NCBI GenBank assembly: GCA_947184155.2
Contig: CAMXCT020003201.1
Coordinates: 397,501 to 461,500, forward strand
Direction of reading: 5' to 3'
Source of the DNA: Cladocopium goreaui
Taxonomy: Eukaryota > Sar > Dinophyceae > Suessiales > Symbiodiniaceae
DNA length: 64,000 nucleotides
Positions 17,284 to 28,247 of this stretch are shown here, piece by piece. Below the pieces are notes generated by a model, which saw only the letters and a list, made by a program, of their open reading frames with translations, was not told where the DNA came from and made no database searches. Position 1 is the first letter of the stretch, and every line of letters starts with the position of its first letter. The position numbers and the translations under genes are program-made.

Positions 17284-17288
17284 CATCC
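17284..17288 (+). repeat. Target-site duplication, left copy
   Basis: CATCC directly precedes the left LTR and is repeated directly after the right LTR at 23,856-23,860. A 5-bp duplication is usual for Ty1/copia integrases. Confidence 0.85.
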
Positions 17289-17369
17289 TGCAATTCCCAT
17301 AGACATTTCACATGGTAGCCATCTGGGGCACAAATGACTGATTCCAGGGAGATATAAGGGGTATTTGCA
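17289..17369 (+). repeat. 5' LTR (81 bp)
   Basis: Starts TGCAATTCCC and ends GTATTTGCA, so the ends are TG...CA with 5-bp inverted TGCAA/TTGCA. It matches the 3' LTR at 80 of 81 bases. It is far shorter than the LTRs of a few hundred bases in most copia elements; no TATA or poly-A signal is evident. Confidence 0.95.
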
Positions 17370-17382
17370 TGGTAGCGAGACC
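17370..17382 (+). other. Primer-binding site, initiator-tRNA-Met-like
   Basis: TGGTAGCGAGACC begins at the first base after the LTR. TGGTAGC is the complement of the 3' end of eukaryotic initiator tRNA-Met, the primer used by many Ty1/copia elements. Confidence 0.8.
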
Positions 17383-17567
17383 CTGCGGCGCTGCACTGGC
17401 AAAGGGTCGCGTGGCCTTTGAGGCGCGGCTGAGCTTGGGCTGGCGGCCAACTACAAGGTGGACACCGTGGAGGACACGAGTGGTCTACTTGGCCGTGTTT
17501 GCCGCGGCGATCTTCCTTTGCTGGGCAGGCGTGCCTTTGGTGATTGTGGGGTTCCTGGTCGGAGAAG
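17383..17567 (+). other. Copia 5' leader
   Basis: GC-rich untranslated leader between primer site and the first gag ATG. An open reading crosses it but has no recognisable content. Confidence 0.5.
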
Positions 17568-18323
17568 ATGGTGACCATGGAGAACCTTGCCCAGGTGGTC
17601 CAACAGTTGCAAGGACAGGTGAATCAGCAGCAGACCGAGAATGCCGAGCTGAGGAACAGAGTGACGAGCTATGAGGCGCAGATCGCACAGCTCACGGCGG
17701 CGACGGTGGCAGCTGGTGGTTCACCACAACATGGAGGTGGACTTGAGGCGACGGAGATCTTACGAGCCCTACAAGGACTTCCTGAGGCCTTAAGCAAGCT
17801 CAATAGACCGAAGGGGTTGATAGACCCACGTGGATTGGGGAAACCCCAAGTTCTTGGGGAGGAGGCTGAACAGAGGTTCCGCCTTTGGTCCATAAAGCTG
17901 GAAGACTACGTCTCGGGTGTCTTTGGTGGTCGCAGCAGAGAAGCACTGGAGTGGGCATCCGGGATGGACAGTGAGATAACATCAGCTGACATAGATCAGA
18001 ACTTTGGGGAGCTGGCCGACATGAACGACCAGTGGGAGGACATTGAGGAGTTCAACAAGCAGCTCTACACGGTCTTGCGGGCGACTACGGAGTCCATCCC
18101 CTTCGACATCGTGGAGAACACCCAGACAGGACATGGACTAGAGGCTTGGAGGCGGCTTCACAGGAGGTTCGATCCTTCGACGGGGAGCCGGAAGAGAATC
18201 ATGCTTCAAGCCCTCACGAACCCGGAGAGGGCATCTTATGAAACTCTTCAGGGAGCATTGGAGCGATGGAAGACCTTGAGATCGGAAACGAGACCAATTT
18301 GGAGCTCGAGAACCTCTTCCTGA
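17568..18323 (+). CDS. Copia Gag, N-terminal part (capsid-like)
   Basis: The start is the first ATG after the leader; a second in-frame ATG at 17,577 is equally possible. An N-terminal Gln-rich coiled coil (VVQQLQGQVNQQQTENAELR) is followed by a region with the capsid-like motif GLEAWRRLHRRFDPST. Gag forms the particle that packages the RNA. The coding sense leaves this frame at about 18,279: here the frame continues to a stop at 18,323, while the next frame reads RKRDQFGAREPLPESLS and continues as the rest of Gag. The break could be a mutation, a read error or, less likely, programmed shifting. Confidence 0.8.
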   Translation: MVTMENLAQVVQQLQGQVNQQQTENAELRNRVTSYEAQIAQLTAATVAAGGSPQHGGGLEATEILRALQGLPEALSKLNRPKGLIDPRGLGKPQVLGEEAEQRFRLWSIKLEDYVSGVFGGRSREALEWASGMDSEITSADIDQNFGELADMNDQWEDIEEFNKQLYTVLRATTESIPFDIVENTQTGHGLEAWRRLHRRFDPSTGSRKRIMLQALTNPERASYETLQGALERWKTLRSETRPIWSSRTSS

Positions 18324-19131
18324 AAGTCTCTCGATGAATGCCCTGGAGAAGTTGGTCCCGAAGGAGCTGGAGCAGCATTTGATGCTGAACTACACAAGGT
18401 TCAAGAACTTCGAGGAGATGGAAGCCGAAGTGATCACCTACATCGAAGCCAAGACAGGATCGAAACTGGTGCTCTCCAGCAACTTTGCAAAACCTACATC
18501 CTCTTCCTCAAGCGGGCCTACTCCTATGGACGTCGACTCCTTGGTCCGCGCTGTCAGTGGCTTGTCGGCTTTGACCAAGGGCAAAGGCGAGAAGAAAGGT
18601 GAGAACAAGATCAAATTCGACGGCCACTGCGATCAATGCGGGAAGTTTGGACACCGCAAACGGGACTGTTGGTCGAAGCCTGGAGGAGGAAAGGGAGCAT
18701 CAGGGGGAAGTCGTTCTGCAAGCCAAAGCCCCAAGAAAGAGGTTCGCTTTGAGGGCAAATGCCATCACTGTGGCAAGACTGGCCACAAGAAATCTGAGTG
18801 CTACTCGAAGGGTGGAAAAGGGAAGAGTCAGAGCAACAACAACAACCAGGCCAAGGGCAAAAGTGGTGGTCGAGGCAACGCAGCTTCACTGGAGCAACCT
18901 GAGCCGGAGTCGAGAGCTGAGAACGCTAGTGGCCTGGACCTATGTACGCTGGTGGAGGTCAAGTCAGAGGAGGCGACAACACCCTTTGAGACAGATGGAT
19001 CTCAGAGTCCGGTGAGCTCAATCAATTCAGTGGATCCTCGTGGTTGGAGTGCAACTTGGACTCAGGGGCTTCAATCACTGTCTTCCCCAAGAACATGTTT
19101 CCGGAGAGGGAGCCCAATGATATCCGCTTGA
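18280..19131 (+). CDS. Copia Gag, C-terminal part with two zinc knuckles
   Basis: The frame is open from about 18,280, although the first ATG is at 18,334 (MNALEKLVPKELEQHL). Two CX2CX4HX4C knuckles, CDQCGKFGHRKRDC (18,628-18,669) and CHHCGKTGHKKSEC (18,760-18,801), are separated by a Gly/Ser/Lys-rich linker; they bind the genomic RNA. A low-complexity basic stretch and an acidic stretch follow. The frame then runs past the protease, which is in another frame, and stops at 19,131. Confidence 0.85.
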   Translation, partial: DRKRDQFGAREPLPESLSMNALEKLVPKELEQHLMLNYTRFKNFEEMEAEVITYIEAKTGSKLVLSSNFAKPTSSSSSGPTPMDVDSLVRAVSGLSALTKGKGEKKGENKIKFDGHCDQCGKFGHRKRDCWSKPGGGKGASGGSRSASQSPKKEVRFEGKCHHCGKTGHKKSECYSKGGKGKSQSNNNNQAKGKSGGRGNAASLEQPEPESRAENASGLDLCTLVEVKSEEATTPFETDGSQSPVSSINSVDPRGWSATWTQGLQSLSSPRTCFRRGSPMISA

Positions 19132-19271
19132 AGACGGCCAGTGGGGAGATGATCAATGTCTACGGCGAGGGGGTCATCTATGGCAAGGATGCTTCCGGGG
19201 ATGATGAGAAGGCTCACTGGGCAGGTTGCAGATGTACACAAGATCCTTATCAGTGCGGCAAAGTTGCATGA
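18990..19271 (+). CDS. Copia aspartic protease fragment
   Basis: The frame contains LECNLDSGASITVFP with the catalytic DSG at 19,059-19,067, followed by LKTASGEMINVYGEGV, as in Ty1/copia proteases. Good similarity stops near 19,218 at AHW, where the next frame takes over with QVADVHKILISAAKL. One extra G in a GGG run at about 19,218-19,220 would explain the break. The enzyme cleaves the Gag-Pol polyprotein. Confidence 0.8.
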   Translation, partial: DRWISESGELNQFSGSSWLECNLDSGASITVFPKNMFPEREPNDIRLKTASGEMINVYGEGVIYGKDASGDDEKAHWAGCRCTQDPYQCGKVA

Positions 19272-22083
19272 GAAGGGATTCAGCACTTGGCTTGGACCTG
19301 GGGGTGGTGAGATCATACCACTCTCACATCCGATCAATGATGAGCTGGGGAAGGCCTATGCTCGCGCAGTGACGAAGTATGGAAAGGAGGGCCTTATCCC
19401 AGTGATGGAGGAGAATGGAGTGTACAACTTCTACATTCGAGAAGAAGAGCTTCAAGATCATGTGGCATCACCAGAAACACCTGATGGAGGACCTCGAGAT
19501 CGACATGGAGTTCATTGGAGCATTCCAGATGATGAGGCAAGACCAGCTTCAGCAGGTTCGAGAAGTCGGTCAAGATCCCATAGACCGGTTTGTGCAGTTG
19601 AAGGAGGAGATCAACCGATCTTGGATGAAGAGGCTGGACCTGATGCTGGAGATCCTGGAGAACAAGTTGAGGCTCGTCCAGCTCGACCAGGTTGGTCGCC
19701 AACTACGCCTTCAGAGGAGGAGAGAAAGGAGCACGAGAGCTCGGGCCATGCAGTGTTCAGGAACTGGTGTGAACAATGCCTTCAAGCCACGGGCTATGCG
19801 CAGAAGCACACCCGGAAAGACCACTCCAAGGACATGCTGCCGACGATTTCCATGGACTTCTTCTACATGAATGAGGATCCCAATGCCCGACCTCATCTGG
19901 TTGCAGTTGATCGCAAGACGGGCATGATGATGGCGACAGCCTTGGAAAAGAAGGGCGGTGCTGACTCTACGGGGCGCAAGCTGCTCACGCGGTTCTTGGA
20001 ACTTCTTGGCTACAAAGAGATGGTCTTGAAGAGTGACGGCGAGCACACCATGGTCAAGCTGAAGAAGGACGCGGCTAGGGAGGCAGCAACAATCACAAAA
20101 GCTGTCTTCGAGGAATCACCAGCAGGTGACAGCAAGGCAAATGGTGAAGCTGAGGCGGCGGTTCGGGAGGTGAAATGGAGAATCAGAGCAATTCACCTGA
20201 CCTTGGAAAAGAAGTTGGGTATCAAGCTTGAAGATGGCCATCCACTTGTTCAGTGGATCCCCCGCTATGCTGCAGAGCAAGCCAATCGTTTTCGAATTGG
20301 AGCTGATGGCCGAACACCTGAAGAACGCCGCACAGGGAAGAAATGGGTAAAGCCTTTACCCCTCTATGGCGAGAAGATCCTGATCAAGCCAGCTGGAAAG
20401 GGGAAGAAGACCGACATGGCTCGAATGAGACCAGCTCCATTTGTTGGTTGTCACAACAGGTTTGGGAGCGTGTTGGGCATGACATCAGAAGGTGTGATCG
20501 TGGGCAGTGGCTTTCATCGACTTGCCGATGACGAGCAGTGGGAGCCTCTAGATGCAGACCTTCGAGGAGCACCTTGGGATGTTCGAGCCTATGTGAGACG
20601 AGCTCAACCTGAAGATCAACAACAACTTCCGGCCCAACAACAGCAGCTGGTGGTCTTGCAACCTGGAGGACAAGCTCAAGCACAACCTGTTCTACCTGCA
20701 CAAGCTGGAGGAGATGAAGTTAGAGTACCAGGCGCTGATTCACCTGCCGAAGGCGTTGGTGGGCCAAGCGCCAGTGAGCAGAGGCCTGGAGTTGCAAAAG
20801 CCTGGCCTGTGAGAAGGGAGCATTTGCAGAAGTTTGGCAAAACAATTGGATGCCCGGGGTGCACTTCCTTGGCACGTGGTGTGGGTTTCCAACAAATTGC
20901 CCACAACAACGAATGCAGAGACCGCATCAAGAGGGGCATCGAGAATGAGATCAAGTTGAAGGAGGTTGAAAACAAGAGGCTGAAAGCCGAGGACAAAGCT
21001 GAGGAGGCGATTCGTGAGGAAGTGCCTTCACAGCCCGTTTCACAAGATCTACAACAAGGTGTTGCACTTGGAGCACCTAGCAGCTCGAGCAGACCGGTGG
21101 AATTCGTCCAAGACGATGCGGTGCTGGAGCCCTCTTTTGATGATTCACCTTCCAGTCCAATGAAGCGGAAGGGTGGTGAGCAAGATGTGCAGGACGTGGA
21201 CGACCTTTTCCGTGAGGCTGAGGCTGAGGAGATTGCCAATGGTCCATCGCCTGCGCAGTCTGCAGCAGTGGAATGGTTGGCCGAGATCATGGGCAGCTTG
21301 GAAGCGGCACAGACGCTAGCTGATCTGGCGGCCATGGATGTGATTGAGGTTTTCTCCCCATCACGGGTGAACCTGGAGGTGAAGAGGTTTGGACTTCGCC
21401 CGGGTTGCGCCATTGACTTGGATGAGATGAAGCCTGATGGAACAGAGCACTGGGACTTGGACAAGGGCACAGACTTCCAACAGCTGTTGGACCTGATTGC
21501 GCTGGAGCAGCCTTACCTGATCACATCGAGTCCACCGTGCTCTACGTTCAGTCCATTGAGGAGGCTGAGCAACTTCAAGAGGAACCAAGTTGAGGTTGAA
21601 GCTGAAGAGCTCTTGGGGAGGGCGAGACTTCAAAAGGCTATGAAATGCTGCAAACAGCAGGACGAGCAGGGAGGGGTGTTTGTGCATGAACATCCAAAAG
21701 GCGCTAGCAGTTGGTTAGAGCCGGAGGTCGTTGAGGTGAAGAACATGCCTGGAGTCAGAGTGGTGCAATCGCCTATGTGCCGGTTTGAGATGAAACTGGA
21801 GGATGACAAGGGCGAGATGCAGTATGTGCGCAAGGAGACGCTCTTCATGACCAACAGCAAGTTTGTCGCTGAGGAGTTGGAGGGCGTGTGCGAGAACAAG
21901 CTCAAAGGAGTTGAAGTTCATCGGCATGTACATCTCATTGGGGGCCAAAGAGCAAAGATGGCCCAGAAATATCCGGTGGCCTTGGTGGAGGCAGTCTTGA
22001 GAGGTCTCAAGAGAGAGCTGAGGGCGAGAGGAGACATCAGTGTGCTGGAAGAGATGCTGAGTGGACCTTCGCCTGACGACTAG
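19156..22083 (+). CDS. Copia integrase plus methyltransferase-like domain
   Basis: Coding sense starts near 19,222 (QVADVHKILISAAKL); the Met at 19,156 is only the first start codon in the frame. Integrase zinc motif: H193, H198, C205, C208. Catalytic triad: D234 (SMDFFY), D294 (KSDGEH), E331 (NGEAEAAV), spacing about 36. A Gln/Pro-rich and basic linker (about 470-700) follows. Residues about 729-945 resemble a Rossmann-type cytosine-5 methyltransferase: VIEVFSPSR (AdoMet-loop position), SSPPCSTFSPLRR with the candidate catalytic Cys795, and VHEHP in the place of the ENV motif. The frame ends at a TAG at 22,081. Integrase inserts the cDNA; the role of the extra domain is inferred. Confidence 0.9.
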   Translation: MSTARGSSMARMLPGMMRRLTGQVADVHKILISAAKLHEKGFSTWLGPGGGEIIPLSHPINDELGKAYARAVTKYGKEGLIPVMEENGVYNFYIREEELQDHVASPETPDGGPRDRHGVHWSIPDDEARPASAGSRSRSRSHRPVCAVEGGDQPILDEEAGPDAGDPGEQVEARPARPGWSPTTPSEEERKEHESSGHAVFRNWCEQCLQATGYAQKHTRKDHSKDMLPTISMDFFYMNEDPNARPHLVAVDRKTGMMMATALEKKGGADSTGRKLLTRFLELLGYKEMVLKSDGEHTMVKLKKDAAREAATITKAVFEESPAGDSKANGEAEAAVREVKWRIRAIHLTLEKKLGIKLEDGHPLVQWIPRYAAEQANRFRIGADGRTPEERRTGKKWVKPLPLYGEKILIKPAGKGKKTDMARMRPAPFVGCHNRFGSVLGMTSEGVIVGSGFHRLADDEQWEPLDADLRGAPWDVRAYVRRAQPEDQQQLPAQQQQLVVLQPGGQAQAQPVLPAQAGGDEVRVPGADSPAEGVGGPSASEQRPGVAKAWPVRREHLQKFGKTIGCPGCTSLARGVGFQQIAHNNECRDRIKRGIENEIKLKEVENKRLKAEDKAEEAIREEVPSQPVSQDLQQGVALGAPSSSSRPVEFVQDDAVLEPSFDDSPSSPMKRKGGEQDVQDVDDLFREAEAEEIANGPSPAQSAAVEWLAEIMGSLEAAQTLADLAAMDVIEVFSPSRVNLEVKRFGLRPGCAIDLDEMKPDGTEHWDLDKGTDFQQLLDLIALEQPYLITSSPPCSTFSPLRRLSNFKRNQVEVEAEELLGRARLQKAMKCCKQQDEQGGVFVHEHPKGASSWLEPEVVEVKNMPGVRVVQSPMCRFEMKLEDDKGEMQYVRKETLFMTNSKFVAEELEGVCENKLKGVEVHRHVHLIGGQRAKMAQKYPVALVEAVLRGLKRELRARGDISVLEEMLSGPSPDD
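21334..21993 (+). other. Methyltransferase-like domain between integrase and RT
   Basis: The order VIEVFSPSR, AIDLDE, SSPPCSTFS, VHEHP and a following RVVQSPMC strand mirrors motifs I, II, IV and VI of C5-DNA methyltransferases. PPC is kept, but the motif I Gly-rich loop and the ENV motif are altered, so activity is doubtful. Retrotransposon-borne DNA methyltransferases have been reported in dinoflagellates; whether this is the same lineage needs an alignment. Confidence 0.6.
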
Positions 22084-23696
22084 GGGCAATCCTAGACCCA
22101 GAACTTGTGAAGAAGGGCAAGCAGGAGGAATTGGATTGGTTGAGGAAAGAGAAGGTTTATGAGCGCATACCGATGCGTGAGGTGGAGGGCCCATTGCTGA
22201 AGTTGAAGTGGGTCAACGTGAACAAGGGCGACACAGTCAACCCAAAGATCAGATGCCGGCTGGTGGCCAAGGAGGTGAAGAAAGCCAAGCCCTTGGAGAG
22301 CCAGTTGGGTGGAGCCGACACTTTCTCTTCCACGCCTCCAGTTGAGGCGATCTACTCGCTGATGAGCATCTTCATGACGGACTTCGAGGATGGCAAGACT
22401 CGGAGATTGGCAACATGGGACATTTCCCGTGCACACTTCATGGGAACAGCGCCTCGACAACTGTTCCTGCAGCTTCCAGAGGAAGATCAAAATCTACCTG
22501 GTGACACGGAGCCGATGGCAGGGAGGCTTCTCAAGAGCATGTACGGCACTCAAGATGCAAGCAAAATCTTTCAGGATGACTATCAGGGCTACCTTCGTCA
22601 GGAGGGTGCGGAGTTTTCTCGACTATGCCCATCTATCTTCAAGATCAGCAGTCGTGGTCTTCTTGGAGCAGTTCATGGAGATGACTTCATGGTGGCTGGG
22701 GAGCCCGAGAACCTGAAGTGGTTTGACGAGGTGCTCAACCGGCGATACACTGCCAGGTGGGAGAACACACTTGGAGATGGGTATGGGGAGATGTTTTTCC
22801 TCAACAGATTGGTGAGGTACATCCCAGATGGAGCGGATGGGCCGGCGCTGGAGATTGAGGCAGACGCCCGGCATGCAGAGATCCTGATGAAGGAGTTTAA
22901 CTTTGACGACAAGACCAAGGGCAGCGACATTCCTGAGGAGAAGATGTCGCAGTCGGAGCTGATTGATTCAGAGCGGCAGCCAGCCTTGGAGCAGAAGCAG
23001 GTGACTATGTTCCGCAGCATGGTGATGCGGATGGCATACATGAGTGTGGATCGGCCGGACTTGTGTCATGTGGTCAGATCCCTTGCATCTTCGATGAAGA
23101 ACCCGAAGATGGTGGATTGGCTTCGCTTGAAGAAGGCGGTGCGCTACTTGATCAAGCAGCCCTACTTGAAGAGGATTTTCAAGTTGCAGAACAAGAAGGA
23201 TTTGCGTGTTGAAGCCTGGTCAGACAGTGATTGGGCAGGAGATCTCAAGACCAGGAGATCGACGACGGGTTCAGTCGTGAAGGTCGGCACTCACACGGTC
23301 TTGGTGAAGGGTGCCAGCCAGAAAGTTGTGGCGCTGTCATCATCGGAGTCGGAGTTCTACGCGATGTGCCGGACTTCGACATTGGCTGAGTTTGTGAGGG
23401 GCATTTTGCTCTTCTGGGAAATGCCACAGACCGTGGTTCGCCTTCGAGTTGACAGTTCGTCAGCAAAGGCTATGTCAGAACGTCATGGAGTTGGGGCGAG
23501 CAGGCATATCCAAGCTCGCTATCTCTGGCTACAAGACAAAGTATTTGCACGTGAACTTGAAGTGACAAAGGTGAATGGAAAATTCAACGACAGTGACCTG
23601 GTCACGAAGGTGCAGACGAAGAACGTGATCGAGTCGCACCTGGCTAGGTTGGGCTTTCACCGAAGTGGCAGGAGCGGCCATAAGGCACTGACGTGA
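22084..23696 (+). CDS. Copia reverse transcriptase and RNase H
   Basis: Open from just after a TGA at 22,074 in this frame (LDPELVKKGKQEELDW) to TGA 23,694-23,696. RT motifs: TWDISRAHF (Asp, 22,419) and VHGDDFMV in place of the copia YVDD. RNase H motifs: SDSDWAGDLKTRRSTTG, SSSESEFYA and RVDSSSAK, matching the D-E-D set of copia RNase H. The preceding integrase frame ends in the next frame at 22,083, so a frame shift separates the two parts. The enzyme copies the RNA into cDNA using the primer site at 17,370. The HGDD form is not a disabling change: both Asp residues remain. Confidence 0.95.
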
Positions 23697-23759: not shown

Positions 23760-23768
23760 GCATCGCAC

Positions 23769-23774
23769 AGGGGG
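23769..23774 (+). other. Polypurine tract (short)
   Basis: AGGGGG lies directly before the 3' LTR, where plus-strand DNA synthesis is primed. It is very short for a polypurine tract. Confidence 0.5.
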
Positions 23775-23855
23775 TGCAATTCCCATAGACATTTCACATG
23801 GTAGCCATCTGGGGCACAAATGACTGATTCCAGGGAGACATAAGGGGTATTTGCA
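23775..23855 (+). repeat. 3' LTR (81 bp)
   Basis: Identical to the 5' LTR except C for T in the gaga(t/c)ataagg part. It ends TTTGCA. Confidence 0.95.
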
Positions 23856-23860
23856 CATCC
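23856..23860 (+). repeat. Target-site duplication, right copy
   Basis: CATCC, matching 17,284-17,288. Confidence 0.85.
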
Positions 23861-24641: not shown

Positions 24642-24746
24642 TACCCTCTGGTTATGTCAAAATAGCTATTGAAAATGGCCATTTATAGTGAGTTTTCCCA
24701 TTAAAAATGGTGATTTTCCATAGCTATGTTAGTTGACCAGAGGGTA
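24642..24746. repeat. MITE family 1 copy
   Basis: TACCCTCTGGTTATGTC ... GTTGACCAGAGGGTA. Confidence 0.85.
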
Positions 24747-25679: not shown

Positions 25680-25783
25680 TACCCTCTGGTAATTTAACAT
25701 AGCTATTGAAAATGGCCATTTATAGTGAGTTTTCCCGTTAAAAATTGTGATTTTCCATAGTTATGTTAGTTTACCAGAGGGTA
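25680..25783. repeat. MITE family 1 copy
   Basis: TACCCTCTGGTAATTTAACA ... TTAGTTTACCAGAGGGTA. Confidence 0.85.
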
Positions 25784-27197: not shown

Positions 27198-27504
27198 TTT
27201 GTACCAAATTGATGGTGAACAAACATGTGGATACATTGAAACCGACAAACCAAGAACTCAGTCTCAGCATGTCTCAGCAATCTGTTTTCAGCAGTGAAAA
27301 GCCAGGGTTCAGTGGACGAAATCCCATCGAATCTTTGTTGCTGCATTTCCAGCATCTATATCTGATGCCGGAATCCTTGGCTAAGGTAAACCACCAAACC
27401 GCATGTTTGTTGCTTAAAGCCATCTTTGCTGGCCAAATTCACCTTTCGGATGCTTCAACCCACCATTTTCAAAGAGTGAAATCCACTTTTCCGTGGCATC
27501 AACC

Positions 27505-28247
27505 ATCATAAAACCACCATGTTTAATAGGTGTTCTTTCAGAAACCATCACAAAACCACCATTTTTCTTAGAGAAACCATGATAAACCACCATGTTTCTT
27601 AGAGAAACCATGATAAACCACCATGTTTCTTAGAGAAACCATGATAAACCACCATGTTTCTTAGAGAAACCATGATAAACCACCATGTTTCTTAGAGAAA
27701 CCATGATAAACCACCATGTTTCTTAGAGAAACCATGATAAACCACCATGTTTCTTAGAGAAACCATGATAAACCACCATGTTTCTTAGAGAAACCATGAT
27801 AAACCACCATGTTTCTTAGAGAAACCATGATAAACCACCATGTTTCTTAGAGAAACCATGATAAACCACCATGTTTCTTCGAGAAACCATGATAAACCAC
27901 CATTTTTCTTAGAGAAACCATGATAAACCACCATTTTCTTAGAGAAACCATGATAAACCACCATTTTTCTTAGAGAAACCATGATAAACCACCATTTTTC
28001 TTAGAGAAACCATGATAAACCACCATTTTTCTTAGAGAAACCATGATAAACCACCATTTTTCTTAGAGAAACCATGATAAACCACCATTTTTCTTAGAGA
28101 AACCATGATAAACCACCATTTTTCTTAGAGAAACCATGATAAACCACCATTTTTCTTAGAGAAACCATGATAAACCACCATTTTTCTTAGAGAAACCATG
28201 ATAAACCACCATTTTTCTTAGAGAAACCATGATAAACCACCATTTTT
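27505..28247. repeat. 31-bp minisatellite, about 24 copies
   Basis: The unit reads TTAGAGAAACCATGATAAAC followed by CACCATGTTTC. The left half carries CCATGTTTC and the right half CCATTTTTC, with the switch near 27,890 next to a single cttcgag variant. There are no unique spacers between units. Because 31 is not a multiple of 3, the open minus-strand frame through it is an artefact of the repeat. Confidence 0.95.

Follow-up and report, generated by a model that had tools for sequence, protein, structure and literature searches.

A putative cytosine methyltransferase-type domain between integrase and reverse transcriptase in copia-like retrotransposons of the dinoflagellate Cladocopium goreaui

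The 64,000-nucleotide stretch of the Cladocopium goreaui assembly GCA_947184155.2 (contig CAMXCT020003201.1, positions 397,501 to 461,500; hereafter the window) contains an element that, judged from its sequence, is a Ty1/copia-type long terminal repeat (LTR) retrotransposon of a dinoflagellate, and that carries a methyltransferase-like (MT) domain between integrase and reverse transcriptase (RT). All of its features lie on the forward strand, apart from the strandless target-site duplications. The element is bounded by clean-ended LTRs of 81 bp at positions 17289–17369 (TG...CA ends) and 23775–23855, which match at 80 of 81 bases, and is flanked by the directly read duplication CATCC, whose left copy is at 17284–17288 and whose right copy abuts the 3′ LTR (23856–23860). 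An LTR of 81 bp is short for a copia-type element. Directly 3′ of the 5′ LTR lies TGGTAGCGAGACC (17370–17382), a putative primer-binding site, and the purine-rich GCACAGGGGG (23765–23774) before the 3′ LTR is presumably the polypurine tract. A gag-like frame runs in two parts. The first (17544–18323) is gag by position, with weak coiled-coil-type matches in Pfam, and the second (18280–19131) contains two CCHC zinc knuckles (18628–18669 and 18760–18801), for which the zf-CCHC match (E = 0.001, 19.5 bits) falls slightly below the cut-off of 20.8. The aspartic-protease-like LDSGASITVFP (19056–19088), recognised from the motif only, is in a frame that differs from the following pol frame (19153–22083, 976 codons). 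The latter contains the integrase region (19723–20592) and the MT domain, which with its margins is stop-free from 21250 to 22080 and has its core at approximately 21337–22011. The linker joining the two includes a possible extra Cys-Cys-His-Cys zinc motif, GCPGCTSLARGVGFQQIAHNNEC (20848–20916). RT and RNase H follow at 22077–23696, with HGDD in 22674–22691 and DSDWAGD in 23217–23243, in a frame different from that of integrase and MT domain. The window copy is thereby split across several frames, whereas a genomic copy 99% identical to it in the MT domain is a single open frame of 2105 codons.

Pfam returned no RT match for the window copy and no integrase match above the cut-off, the rve score of the integrase region lying under it (E = 0.22); relatives carry the same region upstream of the MT domain. 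RVT_2 passed the cut-off in five of the six relatives scanned, the exception being the closest copy, which had no RVT_2 match. We took the element to be of copia type because the window RT directly finds relatives bearing RVT_2 (for example L039 at 5×10−51). Membership in the SymbioLINE or SymbioDIRS groups, marked by the ORF2 of a long interspersed nuclear element (LINE) or by a DIRS tyrosine recombinase, does not suit an LTR element whose relatives are of the integrase-core and RVT_2 type, and no tyrosine recombinase was found among the Pfam matches of the window.

The MT domain is about 240 residues long and contains the motifs of C5-methyltransferases in order. An earlier inspection of the letters without database searches (the sequence-only reading) had picked out VIEVFSPSR, AIDLDE, SSPPCSTFS and VHEHP in the frame past the integrase as motifs in this order; all four were located at 21340–21696, and the Cys795 that it named is correctly numbered when counted from the ATG at 19156. 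Because the domain recurs in the genome and the motif residues are among its most conserved, the motifs are not a product of chance. The altered motif I, VIEVFSPSR (21340–21366), follows the family pattern E-[VI]-[FY]-S-P-x-R. The motif II counterpart AIDLDE begins at 21409, motif IV SSPPCSTFS (21526–21552) bears a catalytic-type Cys and aligns with the PCQ of C5-methyltransferases, and VHEHP (21682–21696), the motif VI counterpart of ENV or ENP, aligns with ENV in these enzymes and with IENP in the phage proteins described below. The C-terminal part, SPMCRFEM...KETLFMTN...GVCENK...HRHVHLIGG (21769–21945), has invariant Cys, Cys, His and His and a K-x-T...TN.

To express conservation, we counted residues in an alignment (A1) of 36 of the 65 domain sequences collected, after exclusion of short sequences and of those sharing at least 93% identity; members reach down to 32% identity with the window copy, and residues are numbered in a 277-residue stretch. 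The catalytic-type Cys is present in 35/36 aligned members and 64/65 collected copies, the Pro before it in 32/36 and 59/65, and the Glu of EHP (Glu147) in 36/36 and 65/65. The Asp of AIDL is kept in all 36 aligned members, and the residues invariant throughout are Asp56, Pro88, Phe100, Glu147, Trp155, Cys177, Cys214, His224, His226 and Leu229. In motif I, the F-x-G-x-G of C5-methyltransferases gives way to [FY]-S-P-x-R, with E in 35/36, then [VI] and [FY], S in 30/36, P in 32/36, any residue, and R in 34/36. As the altered motif is itself conserved, it represents substitution rather than decay, so that the description of the domain as degenerate in motif I and ENV holds in comparison with canonical enzymes but not in the sense of decay. 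The C-terminal part as a whole corresponds to YCqYG...KPTDiWtN...C...CH of the phage proteins, in which Cys, Cys and Cys-His match Cys177, Cys214, His224 and His226, with a His/CH register uncertain by one residue, and this CC(C/H)H set suggests a possible zinc site.

The 1.17-Gb assembly (6202 contigs) has 172 exact occurrences of the dinoflagellate spliced-leader 21-mer and none of the same pattern reversed, in keeping with a dinoflagellate host, and it contains many MT domains. Of 2210 loose candidates, a search with the window MT domain gave at least 140 that were scored as matches, and an overlapping search with a distant member gave at least 150 from 4641. We examined 68 loci, numbered from L009 (the window locus) to L076 and picked for their similarity to the MT domain of the window. 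At 56 of them the window-type integrase, where found, precedes the MT domain and the window-type RT, where found, follows it, both being found in 52. At the remaining 12 (L055–L064, L075 and L076, two of which supplied the query) the MT domain precedes an integrase of another type in every case (12/12); rve was found in three of the four such loci scanned, under the cut-off (E from 3.8×10−6 to 2.4×10−4). Some of these elements have open frames of more than 3000 codons. When places were selected by RT alone, 82/82 among the matches listed, a set that includes the window and split copies, had an MT domain no more than 3.5 kb upstream in the same orientation. A tree of 31 of the 36 aligned members, without the five frayed ones, and of 10 of the 44 phage sequences placed the domains that follow the integrase in one clade (99/99), while those that precede it were not set apart from the rest by a single branch. 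The two architectures could be explained by a single move inside Pol or, equally, by captures in each kind of element.

The ratio of nonsynonymous to synonymous substitution rates (dN/dS) of the MT domain had a median of 0.075 and a maximum of 0.33 in 44 pairs with an MT dS between 0.05 and 1.2, pairs that share sequences and so are not independent. All 44 come from loci at which the domain follows the integrase, and the ratios are therefore silent on the other group. Distances between MT domains tracked those of RT (r = 0.943, 39 loci) and integrase (r = 0.953, 35 loci), and neither correlation was reached in any of 999 permutations. The MT domain is thus kept by selection.

We compared the aligned members with methyltransferase families by hhalign. 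Against a profile of 13 C5-methyltransferases (five of the same genome, four of phages or viruses of archaea and four of plasmids), the alignment had a probability of 87.9 (P = 3.2×10−6) and a score of 49.8, compared to 20.2 at most for 60 decoys (one reversed and 59 column-shuffled), and it placed SPPC on PCQ and EHP on ENV. Scanning IMG/VR with the closest members (A5) revealed at least two contigs bridging to a phage family; the proteins of both passed the PF00145 cut-off and matched PHROG 757, annotated as DNA methyltransferase. From 134 viral contigs with a relative we kept 80; adding the earlier loci brought the phage proteins to 89, of which 85 had sufficient length, and a filter at less than 75% identity left 44. 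Against these 44 the retrotransposon domains aligned full-length over 200 columns with a probability of 97.3 (P = 1.9×10−11) and a score of 81.4, while 60 decoys reached at most 20.5 and real-protein controls scored 19.0 (integrase), 13.6 (RT) and 23.8 (RNase H). A repeat with 17 phage proteins (A6; of the first 19, one had a stop codon and another was dropped alongside) gave a probability of 96.9 (P = 1.4×10−10). In a cross-search with hidden Markov models (HMMs), all 36 retrotransposon domains and all 44 phage proteins were found at E ≤ 10 for 1000 sequences, compared to 4/720 and 11/880 shuffled sequences; at E ≤ 10−3, 13 domains and 18 phage proteins were found and no shuffled sequence.

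The phage family itself matched the C5 set at P = 6.5×10−17, and its profile retrieved 27 rows of the PDB at E ≤ 1 (best E = 0.0021), of which 17, including all of the best 15, were C5-methyltransferases, many of them forms of M.HhaI, and the 10 others were antibody chains. The top two rows are presumably M.MpeI. The chain from the retrotransposon domain through the phage family to solved C5-methyltransferases is thus closed by homology, and these profile comparisons show the MT domain to be homologous over its full length to small C5-type DNA methyltransferases of phages (PHROG 757 type); the placing of the SPPC Cys in the active site would follow from that homology. The proposal of the sequence-only reading, that integrase and RT are separated by a domain of cytosine-methyltransferase type foreign to the standard copia plan, is in this way supported by profile matches. 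Individual PHROG scans of the 36 members returned the DNA methyltransferase families 2882 (7/36), 757, 363 and 116 weakly (best E = 0.0041) and mixed with families of unknown function, and the PHROG 757 HMM matched five of the 36 at E ≤ 1 (best E = 0.0071, likewise weak), a group that does not include the window copy. No relative was found in viral and prokaryote contigs by a single-sequence search with the window MT domain or by a search with the set of domains that precede the integrase (A4), and tblastn of the window domain in phages gave one chance match (E = 8).

We consider it very probable that the MT domain derives from a methyltransferase and is functional. Our preferred reading, to which we assign a probability of about 0.52, is that it would modify cytosines, most likely as a C5-methyltransferase, in the new complementary DNA (cDNA) of the element or in target DNA; that it performs methyl transfer as such we put at even odds. 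A number of observations weigh against this enzymatic interpretation. The window MT domain matched no Pfam family and did not pass the PF00145 cut-off, and among the 36 members the best PF00145 match had an E of 0.24, in a single member. Against six methyltransferases of the same genome, hhalign gave a probability of only 51.0 (P = 1.5×10−4, score 38.1). The MT profile had no match among PDB sequences, and a single phage protein matched only an actin-capping chain there (E = 0.74). The motif I glycine, present in 44/44 phage proteins and 13/13 C5-methyltransferases, is absent from the MT domain, Pro being found in 32/36, and the Asn of ENV or ENP is replaced by His, Ala or Gln in 36/36 (EHP, EAP, EQP). 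In one clade SPPC is replaced by SPRC (L046, L047, L051, L052 and L065) or GFDC (L066), and the SPRC pairs are under purifying selection (dN/dS of 0.03 for L046/L047 and 0.07 for L051/L052); SPDC is present in some phage members. Neither the QxRxR of motif VIII nor a target-recognition domain was seen by eye in the aligned members or the phage relatives, in a region where the profile alignment is unsure. The dN/dS of the MT domain, low as it is, lies somewhat above the medians for integrase (0.05, 23 pairs) and RT (0.04, 21 pairs), suggesting that selection on it is strong yet a little weaker. Finally, CpG depletion, considered as a sign of self-methylation, was not seen, the observed/expected ratio being 0.61 in the element against 0.56 in the rest of the window (medians of 0.68 for L009–L054 and 0.62 for L055–L064). 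This last result carries little weight, given that CG methylation extends over most of the Symbiodinium genome (PMC5890265).

The main rival, which we regard as possible but tentative, holds that the domain is a methyltransferase-derived module working without methyl transfer, which would bind DNA, flipped cytosines or a partner and steer integration or hold cDNA much as a chromodomain might. Such a module would accommodate the loss of glycine from motif I and of Asn from ENV, the continued selection on the SPRC clade and the lack of CpG depletion, as well as the position of the MT domain next to the integrase in both architectures. It would not, however, need the Cys (64/65) and the Glu (65/65), both of which are kept down to 32% identity. 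A quite unlikely alternative is a Cys/Glu enzyme acting on cytosine with another donor or with none, in which the Cys would still form its adduct while SPxR recognises some other cofactor, or which would carry out deamination or exchange. The strict retention of nucleophile and Glu, and a cofactor-loop replacement that is conserved and not random, would agree with it, but direct evidence for it is lacking and the motif II Asp is invariant, pointing to a nucleoside cofactor, for example S-adenosylmethionine (SAM). That the domain is no methyltransferase at all, its PPC and EHP being coincidences in an unrelated fold, is very unlikely: the lack of a PDB match of its own and of any Pfam match over the cut-off would be expected in that case, but the full-length profile match to phage methyltransferases, the conserved residues in register and the decoy controls all argue otherwise. 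Least credible of all is a decaying relic of a known dinoflagellate retrotransposon DNA methyltransferase (DNMT), from SymbioLINE or SymbioDIRS, for although the motifs are altered, such elements are reported in Symbiodinium (PMC5890265) and PF00145 has 125 scored matches in this genome (in agreement with the published DNMT expansion in Symbiodinium), the altered motifs are conserved, the median dN/dS is 0.075, and the score is 81.4 against the phage family compared to 49.8 against the C5 set and 38.1 against the six genomic methyltransferases, scores that are only roughly comparable across profiles. The inactive descendant or relic entertained by the sequence-only reading fits poorly for the same low dN/dS and for the Cys and Glu kept across a diverse family. 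That reading was right that methyltransferases have been reported in dinoflagellate retrotransposons (LINE and DIRS elements), but the MT domain does not look like an offshoot of these DNMTs, the nearest relatives found being phage methyltransferases.

If the MT domain is a cytosine-modifying enzyme, as we prefer, it would act on the new cDNA of its own element or on target DNA. As a segment of Pol adjoining integrase and RT, it would be produced together with them and would arrive with the complex in which the new DNA is held. In M.HhaI, a Cys attacks the flipped cytosine and a Glu protonates it; the kept Cys and Glu of the MT domain would do the same, and the conserved SPxR loop may fill the role that the glycine loop has at the cofactor. 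Possibly by binding zinc, the CC(C/H)H site could hold the short C-terminal part, which would occupy the place of the target-recognition domain of larger enzymes. Methylation before or at integration might make the new copy resemble the heavily CG-methylated host DNA; alternatively, it might silence the new copy and so limit harm. We also considered a role in host 5-hydroxymethyluracil synthesis and rejected it, since a dinoflagellate enzyme for that synthesis has reportedly been described already (by Li et al. in 2024). Retrotransposon DNMTs are reported to methylate CG de novo (PMC5890265), which we count as a precedent for methylation. Elsewhere in the window, outside the element, two direct repeats of 88 bp (24659–24746 and 25696–25783) are 94% alike, and a tandem array with a 31-bp period occupies 27460–27986.

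The MT domain looks like a second, unrecognised lineage of dinoflagellate retrotransposon methyltransferases, to go by the profile matches. If this genome is typical, Copia elements also carry a DNMT-type domain, apparently of another lineage and hidden from Pfam, in contrast to de Mendoza et al. 2018, according to whom the Copia superfamily, the most abundant of the Symbiodinium retrotransposons, is without any DNMT domain (PMC5890265). The finding bears on the broad methylation of dinoflagellate genomes, on the repeated gain of methyltransferases by mobile elements and on the movement of genes between phages and the transposons of protists. The combination of a retained Cys and Glu with a remodelled cofactor loop poses a direct biochemical question. 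A bolder proposition, which we think rather unlikely, is that a large copia-like population carries its own unseen lineage of cytosine-acting enzymes in which the S-P-x-R loop replaces the SAM glycine loop, amounting to a new cofactor site or a new chemistry, and in which a phage-type gene became fixed at two places in Pol. A full-text literature search, judged from titles and abstract starts and with most subscription journals and preprints outside its coverage, returned no report of an MT domain in Copia elements. A passage of PMC12344493 places DNMT3 in ‘LTR Copia and DIRS’ elements and cites PMC5890265, whose own word, in the passage concerned, is Gypsy; the two disagree. Methylases are listed in Gypsy and DIRS elements in a passage of PMC6338049, and the passages of PMC11453091 that mention copia elements are silent on such a domain.

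Closest among known systems are the phage methyltransferases of PHROG 757 type, such as BEU14604.1 of Bacillus phage CM1 and HFTV1-gp60 of Haloferax tailed virus 1, to which the full-length profile match extends. Their motifs and those of the MT domain stand in register: ELF.G with EvFSP, SPPC in both, IENP with hEHP, YCqYG with MCrfgM, KPTDiWtN with KxT..TN, C...CH with C...HrH, and the P..L end. The phage enzymes differ in being stand-alone proteins that retain both IENP and the glycine of motif I, whereas the MT domain has SPxR, mostly EHP, and is fused into Pol. With Ty1/copia Pol the window element shares LTRs, zinc knuckles, a protease-like motif and an integrase before an RVT_2-type RT and RNase H, and it differs in its extra domain between integrase and RT and in its short 81-bp LTRs. 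The chromodomain of chromoviruses has a different fold and is not known to carry enzyme motifs. It resembles the MT domain as an accessory module (PMC6338049) on the C-terminal side of the integrase (PMC3605345). SymbioLINE-Dnmt and SymbioDIRS-Dnmt3 are likewise cytosine methyltransferases in dinoflagellate retrotransposons, with many copies under purifying selection (Ka/Ks < 0.2), but they belong to LINE and DIRS elements and their DNMTs are detectable by Pfam and keep the key residues (PMC5890265). The same source describes KnitGypsy-Dnmt3 of Klebsormidium nitens, which like the MT domain is a methyltransferase occupying part of the Pol frame in an LTR retrotransposon, but is of DNMT3 type and resides in a Gypsy element (PMC5890265).

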